From Ruminococcus sp. (GTDB lineage Bacteria > Bacillota > Clostridia > Oscillospirales > Acutalibacteraceae), in NCBI GenBank assembly GCA_017403985.1, contig JAFRDE010000023.1:22601-86600 (forward strand): a stretch of 64,000 nucleotides of DNA, in the 5' to 3' direction. The notes under the pieces were generated by a model. The model was not told the DNA's origin. It saw only the letters and a list, made by a program, of their open reading frames with translations, and searched no databases. A program made the position numbers and the translations under genes. The first letter of the stretch is position 1, and every line of letters begins with the position of its first letter. Positions 63,675 through 64,000 of the stretch are shown piece by piece.

Positions 63675-64000
63675 TTACGGCTGTGTGGGGGCCGGCTCAG
63701 TAGAGGCGGTCGTTTCCTGCACACCGATTTGGTAAGGAACGCTCATGTTCGCGAGCCAGCGCTGGATCCACGTCGCGTCGATGATGGTGATTTGTTTATC
63801 ACCGTCGACGTCGGCGGTGCCGTTATTGAAGTCTTCGCTGATCAGACCGACCAGATAGCGCCGGATTACGGTGACGTCGTTAACGTCTACCGTTTTGCTG
63901 TTGTCCGCGTCTCCGGGCACACCGCGAAGGCGCAGTACCAGATGGAGGGTGTTTTCCTTCTGGATGTTATAATCGGCGAGGGTACGACCGTCCTCAAGCT
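63675..64000 (-). CDS. Ubiquitin-dockerin fusion protein, C-terminal part
   Basis: Runs off the right edge. The visible 108 codons begin inside a ubiquitin domain: '[20 protein letters not shown]' then 'VLRLRGV', which matches residues 50-76 of eukaryotic ubiquitin except for three positions (Ser57 to Ala, Ser65 to Asn, Gly76 to Val). It goes straight into a type I dockerin: '[20 protein letters not shown]', '[20 protein letters not shown]', with two calcium loops, and ends in a Thr/Pro-rich tail ('[12 protein letters not shown]'). Lys63, His68 and Val70 are kept, but the terminal Gly-Gly needed for conjugation is Gly-Val within a longer chain. A dockerin implies export and docking to a cohesin; the N-terminus is not visible. 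Confidence 0.9.

Follow-up and report, generated by a model that had tools for sequence, protein, structure and literature searches.

A near-human ubiquitin fused to a dockerin

The question raised by this 64,000-nucleotide stretch of Ruminococcus sp. DNA (the window; bases 22601-86600 of contig C21) is what a bacterium might do with a ubiquitin that closely resembles the human protein and is joined to a dockerin. C21 ends together with the window, inside the ubiquitin-dockerin gene, and the visible open frame (63675-63998, reverse strand) encodes ubiquitin residues 50-75, a valine and then the dockerin. The answer that we favor, with modest confidence, is that the protein would be exported, anchored through a cohesin and displayed as a ligand in the form of a ubiquitin that cannot be conjugated in the usual way. 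The first 27 visible residues equal residues 50-76 of human ubiquitin at 24 positions, the differences being S57A, S65N and G76V; the human reference agrees with a PDB alignment over residues 1-75. The visible piece scores 28 bits against the PF00240 profile (cut-off 25.4), and the full domain on an overlapping contig scores 110 bits.

The complete gene was found on that contig, C7, of the same genome. Bases 1-12000 of C7 match window positions 38153-50152 at 100% over 12,000 bases, and bases 12000-25848 match C21 with 1 mismatch in 13,849 (13,848/13,849 equal). Since the overlap matches, C21 simply ends inside the gene. C7 duplicates window positions 38153-64000 almost base for base, and the assembly therefore holds this stretch twice, with gene counts there inflated. 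On C7 an AGGAGG site precedes an ATG that gives a protein of 190 amino acids, whereas the earliest possible start gives 201. The order of parts is a signal peptide ending in VYA, a nine-residue spacer (ADVDVSPTG), ubiquitin, valine, dockerin and a tail. The signal peptide was called by rule, from a hydrophobic core with a mean of 3.16, the VYA cut pattern and a ribosome-binding site before the ATG. Pfam recognized ubiquitin at 107.9 bits, far above the curated PF00240 cut-off, and Dockerin_1 (PF00404) at 32.9 bits, and a chance origin of the ubiquitin match is excluded.

The ubiquitin domain is 89% identical to human ubiquitin, from which it differs by E16D, S20N, V26I, A28Q, D32E, G35S, S57A, S65N and G76V. 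All seven lysines are retained, as are L8, I44, H68 and V70 of the Ile44 patch; the C-terminal GlyGly used for conjugation is replaced by G75-V76, fused onward to the dockerin. The preliminary description, made from the cut gene alone, had proposed a eukaryote-type ubiquitin fused to a dockerin, and the complete protein bears out both parts, with the whole ubiquitin domain and its Ile44 patch lying upstream behind a signal peptide. From the 89% identity and a structural model of a relative, L100, the protein is predicted to adopt the beta-grasp ubiquitin fold. In the model of mature L100 (ubiquitin plus dockerin), the predicted local distance difference test (pLDDT) scores were 89-98 per block of ten residues in the ubiquitin part and 57-82 per block in the dockerin part. 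The best PDB match was a ubiquitin chain, and there was no separate dockerin match among the 50 PDB rows shown. This model came from a 48-row alignment (mean pLDDT 79), an earlier 11-row job having given a mean pLDDT of 45. NCBIfam models run on the ubiquitin part of ten proteins returned only rad23, far under its cut-off.

The dockerin contains two repeats, and both calcium loops are intact. Its second repeat carries an IIDAT-IQR-LA pattern that recurs with changes in several dockerins of the same genome; 8 loci were compared, 7 of them distinct. The genome holds 65 dockerin places, two pairs of which are C7/C21 duplicates, so that at most 63 are distinct. One cohesin place was found (43.3 bits, L176:1402-2547), in a 381-residue protein in which a signal peptide, a Gly/Ser linker and a C-terminal membrane segment were read by eye. 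Many dockerins and an anchored cohesin protein in the same genome make surface display plausible, as the preliminary description had supposed; the pairing of this dockerin with that cohesin is suggested by their occurrence together. In the cellulosomes and amylosomes of Ruminococcus, type I dockerin proteins have a signal peptide, a cargo and a C-terminal dockerin with two calcium loops. The window protein shares this layout, and the genus proteins likewise come from genomes with many dockerin genes, but their cargo is an enzyme or a carbohydrate-binding module where the window protein carries ubiquitin.

A class of exported ubiquitins

We pooled 139 distinct places with related ubiquitins, 135 of them full-length (109 at 70% or more identity to human ubiquitin and 26 below), and called signal peptides by rule rather than with SignalP. 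Among the 109, a rule-based cut site lies right before Met1 in 76, a signal peptide stands at another spacing, the type of the window protein, in 15, and 18 have none; several of these 18 look eukaryotic, for example L127 with four tandem ubiquitins. Among the 26 more distant sequences, 7 have the cut-at-Met1 layout and 19 lack a signal peptide. A stricter rule, with the hydrophobic core ending no more than 12 residues from Met1, reduced the 76 to 70, and the six that were lost include L100 and L110, the orthologues of the window protein in place. Alanine at -1 with a small residue at -3 falls at Met1 in 69 of the 91 exported proteins; the next best offset, two residues upstream in the same AxA stretch, reached 41/91, and downstream offsets at most 1/91. 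The window protein itself, with its spacer, is not cut directly before Met1.

What follows the ubiquitin varies by lineage. At an E value of 0.001, Dockerin_1 was matched in 18 of the 91 exported proteins, Autotransporter in 13, SLH in 3 and IPTL-CTERM in 3, and a type IX sorting tail is present in L137; in the remainder the partner is something else or has no recognized part. Of the 91, 10 are cut at the 3' end. GlyGly occupies positions 75-76 in 12/94, and six of these 12 end there. We see the window protein as belonging to a wider class of exported ubiquitins in bacteria, in many cases joined to a surface anchor typical of the lineage; we hold this jointly with the account of display given below, and judge the two together somewhat probable.

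In six exported proteins (L191, L196, L203, L206, L207 and L172) the signal peptide is followed by a ubiquitin that stops precisely at Gly76. L191 comes from Dyella OK004, L196 from Sphingomonas canadensis, L172 from a Burkholderiales genome and the others from three further genomes of the Dyella family. In L196 the cut may fall a few residues before Met1.

Distribution among bacteria

PF00240 matches occurred in 33 of 161 genus genomes (13 of the 81 of high quality), in 20/398 genomes of a family sample and in 5/398 of a phylum sample, each count including the window's own genome. Elsewhere they were found in 6/74 genomes in the family of an Akkermansiaceae genome and in 10/233 in the family of Dyella. 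The genus matches fall at 41 places: 24 are full-length, N-terminal and at least 74% identical to human ubiquitin (22 genomes of the 161), 12 are internal at 34-56% identity, one (L065) is N-terminal at 62%, and the remainder are three partial pieces and the window's own cut copy. Six proteins with internal domains, when scanned, showed beta-helix, Ig-like and InlB-like repeats, with a dockerin in two. In L058, L059, L061, L063, L066 and L068 the internal ubiquitin-like domains are 42-54% identical to human ubiquitin and belong to large exported proteins, L063 carrying two copies.

A scan of named genomes gave at least 360 relatives, the best 80 of which were used, so that the sets lean towards high identity. 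Isolates by title among these best 80 are Conexibacter CPCC 206217, Rhodobacter amnigenus, Dyella OK004, Dyella acidiphila, Pseudohaliea rubra, Loktanella 5RATIMAR09, Sphingomonas canadensis, Methylolobus aquaticus, Paracidovorax valerianellae and Ruminococcus albus 8. Ruminococcus albus 7 bears a related ubiquitin gene on the complete plasmid pRUMAL01. Its product, WP_013483628.1, resembles the window protein in combining a signal-peptide pattern, here ending right before Met1, with a near-human ubiquitin that shares 85% identity with the window's domain; it differs in that the ubiquitin is followed not by a dockerin but by a stretch with no confident Pfam match. Nearby lies a separate dockerin gene. 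On pRUMAL01 (L241:1383-8273) the ubiquitin gene stands within a run of exported look-alike proteins, a PI-PLC-X gene and the dockerin gene, and one of the look-alikes matches Spore Coat Protein U below the threshold.

A search of phage records gave no match. In the IMG/VR contigs L242 and L246-L249, which may be phages or bacterial pieces, ubiquitin stands behind a signal-peptide-like stretch, and three show an IPTL-CTERM-like end by eye. Near-human ubiquitin is in sum a recurring part of the secretome of one rumen-type genus that also occurs, with a common layout, in isolates of other phyla.

Comparison with described secreted ubiquitins

The closest described case is BfUbb of Bacteroides fragilis, which in 2017 was called one of few bacteria with a eukaryotic-like ubiquitin (PMC5705921, here and below from an excerpt). 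Its signal peptide is cut exactly at Met1, its terminal glycine is absent, and a synthetic 76-residue BfUbb inhibited 13 of 40 B. fragilis strains, bovine ubiquitin being inactive on the strains tested; the excerpt adds that the authors saw no activating or conjugating enzymes in the B. fragilis genome. The window protein resembles BfUbb as an exported eukaryote-type ubiquitin with a signal peptide and a lost terminal glycine (PMC5705921, PMC3352274, both as excerpted). According to the same excerpts, BfUbb is a free 76-residue protein 63% identical to human ubiquitin, whereas the window protein is 89% identical, fused to a dockerin and preceded by the nine-residue spacer. The secreted ubiquitin effector of Globodera rostochiensis, as summarized in the excerpt of PMC5705921, is likewise an exported, C-terminally extended ubiquitin that targets another organism; it differs in being a eukaryote's protein, with an extension that is a 12-residue peptide and is cut off.

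Among the papers listed, judged by title and the start of the abstract, only those on BfUbb concerned exported or dockerin-linked near-human ubiquitin, subscription papers lying mostly outside the scope, and no anchored, exported near-human ubiquitin is described in the excerpts of PMC11354881, PMC3482391 and PMC1949818. The statement in the preliminary description that no dockerin-linked ubiquitin had been described agrees with these titles and abstract starts, but the protein is no singleton, as the 18 Dockerin_1 matches among the 91 attest. A dockerin-linked exported ubiquitin appears to be new within the titles and abstracts covered, exported bacterial ubiquitin as such being known already from BfUbb.

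Proposed display as a ligand and competing explanations

We propose the following course of events. A Sec signal peptide would be cut off (the pattern being VYA before ADVDVSPTG), leaving the ubiquitin near a free N-terminus. With calcium, the dockerin would plug into the cohesin of the same cell's membrane-anchored protein, both parts being encoded in the genome. The ubiquitin, with valine at position 76 and fused onward, would not be conjugable in the usual way and would be shown on the cell surface, where it would be the working part, acting as a protein ligand. Its partner would most likely be a eukaryotic protein that recognizes ubiquitin, from a protist, fungus or host encountered in the gut; a protein of competing bacteria, as with BfUbb, would come second. 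We rank a displayed ligand first, with a eukaryotic partner slightly ahead of a bacterial one, and a structural role behind. If true, this would connect the surface of bacteria with ubiquitin readers, eukaryotic or bacterial, in a way that can be tested in cultured carriers such as Ruminococcus albus 7, Dyella and Loktanella, and it could affect antibody-based or mass-spectrometric assays for ubiquitin in gut samples. A broader version, which we put forward tentatively and regard as possible rather than probable, is that bacteria of several phyla wear near-human ubiquitin. It would have been set repeatedly at the free N-terminal end of an exported protein and coupled to the lineage's own anchor (dockerin, autotransporter barrel, S-layer domain, IPTL-CTERM or, once, a type IX sorting tail), and would address protists and other eukaryotes in general, either as a signal or as a mimic directed against them.

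Conservation of the surface was examined for traces of a partner. L8, I44, H68 and V70 are all intact in 75/89 sequences. With Henikoff weights over 92 distinct rows, conservation was 0.74 for the patch, 0.84 for the lysines, 0.89 for the core and 0.73 for the other surface; unweighted over 89 rows, the values were 0.934, 0.923, 0.935 and, for the surface outside the patch, 0.866. Conservation of the patch neither shows nor excludes a eukaryotic partner.

Several observations weigh against display as a ligand. Random surface sets match the conservation of the Ile44 patch in 12% of draws (P 0.12, n=89), the patch shows no conservation bias within the window's own group (P 0.67), and all seven lysines are kept in only 51/89. 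The nine-residue spacer, which the orthologues L100 and L110 probably share, departs from the common layout, and that layout itself depends on signal peptides called by rule. Many exported ubiquitins have no Pfam-recognized anchor, and the genome offers only one cohesin place. Eukaryotic ubiquitin readers are, moreover, mostly intracellular.

The strongest competitor, somewhat unlikely in our judgment, is an antibacterial ligand that would halt the growth of related strains by binding one of their essential, exposed proteins, with the dockerin serving to concentrate ubiquitin on the producer or on a shed cellulosome-like complex. For BfUbb, a target study is reported to have named a peptidyl-prolyl isomerase. 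LytTR regulators often control peptide-toxin genes, and a LytTR-type regulator gene (one member scanned) adjoins 7 of our loci. The gene is also patchily present, with empty sites described below, and 76 of the 91 exported proteins share by rule the layout of BfUbb, a growth inhibitor that is cut precisely at Met1 and has lost the terminal glycine (PMC5705921, excerpt). Yet BfUbb is free, whereas the ubiquitins here are fused to anchors in many lineages, and the internal ubiquitin-like domains of large secreted genus proteins do not look like toxins. Among 55 loci no neighbor is common enough to suggest an immunity gene, although BfUbb itself seems to need none (PMC5705921, excerpt).

That ubiquitin is merely a fast-folding, protease-resistant N-terminal module capping surface proteins we consider improbable. 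It does precede very different partners, internal copies occur in large surface proteins, and the Ile44 patch shows no significant conservation bias. Against such a role, the window protein has only ubiquitin and dockerin as recognized domains, leaving nothing else to cap, and in six exported proteins the chain stops at Gly76 itself. A dN/dS ratio (nonsynonymous to synonymous substitution rate) of 0.08 and a near-human surface would also exceed what the fold needs.

That the ubiquitin takes part in functional conjugation, whether within the cell or outside it, is very improbable: the seven lysines kept in the window protein and the GlyGly of 12/94 exported ubiquitins would fit it, but valine at 76, the C-terminal fusion and export do not, and the E2 profile PF00179 had 0 matches in the window's own genome, with a control that gave no match either. 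The earlier argument that G76V and the fusion speak against conjugation holds in so far as the canonical GlyGly end is missing.

Selection and history

Thirty sequences of the genus type gave 435 pairs, 92 of which were usable (dS 0.1-1.5) and had a median dN/dS of 0.081 (quartiles 0.059 and 0.107). Across all 435, the median pair has synonymous sites near saturation (median proportion of synonymous differences, pS, 0.77) with little protein change. Purifying selection on the genus-type ubiquitins is strong.

In a tree of 73 columns, the ubiquitin of the window belongs to a bacterial group of 27 rows with a Shimodaira-Hasegawa-like approximate likelihood ratio (SH-aLRT) of 94, just under the tool's mark of 95. 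All but one of the 27 rows come from Clostridia or the window's own genus, and many carry RUG or RGIG names, which we take to denote ruminant gut genomes. Synonymous saturation with small protein change, together with this group, does not support the recent gain from a eukaryote that had been suggested in the preliminary description, and we set recent transfer aside. Human ubiquitin sits among bacterial rows. Only 3 of 105 inner branches are starred, and because the deeper forks are weakly supported the tree cannot tell how many times bacteria gained ubiquitin from eukaryotes.

The locus

The order rplM, ubiquitin gene, usp recurs in two other genomes (G119 and G088) and, split over two contig ends, in a third (G023). 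In G110, G012 and G047 the flanks lie close together and the gene is absent: the flanks are about 130 and 240 bases apart in G110 and G012, versus about 930 and 920 in the window's genome, and about 140 in G047, versus about 700 (a distance taken to the stretch immediately upstream of the gene). G142 and G066 have other sequence, about 2.2 and 6.4 kb, between the flanks. The same place in other species and the empty sites identify the gene as an accessory gene in a housekeeping neighborhood and not a contaminant. Contamination or misassembly from a eukaryote, for which the position at a contig end and the eukaryotic-looking hits without signal peptide (again, L127) might speak, has a negligible chance and was rejected on the synteny, the empty sites, the full gene with bacterial flanks on C7, the bacterial ribosome-binding site and signal peptide, and the related protein annotated on the complete plasmid of R. 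albus 7. The doubts voiced at the outset, that a complete ubiquitin might be lacking upstream or that the contig edge might be an artifact, are thereby removed.

Terminator-like hairpins lie on both sides of the gene, with 5 in the region versus 1.7 expected, as pattern matches only. The flanking frames in Table 1 we presume from their sequence to be rplM and rpsI.

Table 1 Features at the right end of the window (positions of the window unless a locus is named)
Feature	Position	Strand	Basis
3' part of ubiquitin-dockerin gene	63675..64000	-	open frame; whole gene L003:13524-14096, from ATG behind AGGAGG, on C7
Visible ubiquitin domain, residues 50-75	63921..64000	-	residues 1-49 beyond window; full domain 107.9 bits
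Val replacing ubiquitin Gly76, junction to dockerin	63918..63920	-	sequence comparison
Type I dockerin, two calcium-loop repeats	63759..63917	-	PF00404 32.9 bits; loops read
C-terminal tail, end rich in Thr, Pro, Glu	63678..63758	-	translation; stop codon 63675-63677
Terminator-like hairpin 3' of gene	63632..63653 (L003:13481-13502)	-	9 pairs, T-rich tail; pattern match only
rplM (ribosomal protein uL13), synteny flank	63018..63446	-	open frame; named from sequence
rpsI (ribosomal protein uS9), flank	62599..63000	-	open frame; named from sequence

Other loci with ubiquitin-like genes

A conserved gene adjoins the ubiquitin gene at L047, L049, L051, L117, L119, L120 and L170; the neighbor at L047 has a LytTR DNA-binding domain, and the orientation is divergent in the four loci printed. 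At L141, L149, L156, L166 and L173 (Burkholderiales and kin, autotransporter type), a conserved gene of 330 amino acids adjoins the exported ubiquitin. Three members scanned gave no Pfam or NCBIfam match. A SET protein, considered from motifs seen by eye only, was discarded, the two PDB hits of the profile being weak and not SET by name.

Three tandem genes in another genome (L086, L093 and L095; G252:C22, about 30899-31909) encode proteins of 103, 123 and 103 residues with a double-glycine leader (LSEEELELVIGG), which we would liken to the leaders of bacteriocins. The leader precedes a ubiquitin-like domain ending in LRG, LMG or QMG, and these genes perhaps represent a second export route for ubiquitin-like proteins.
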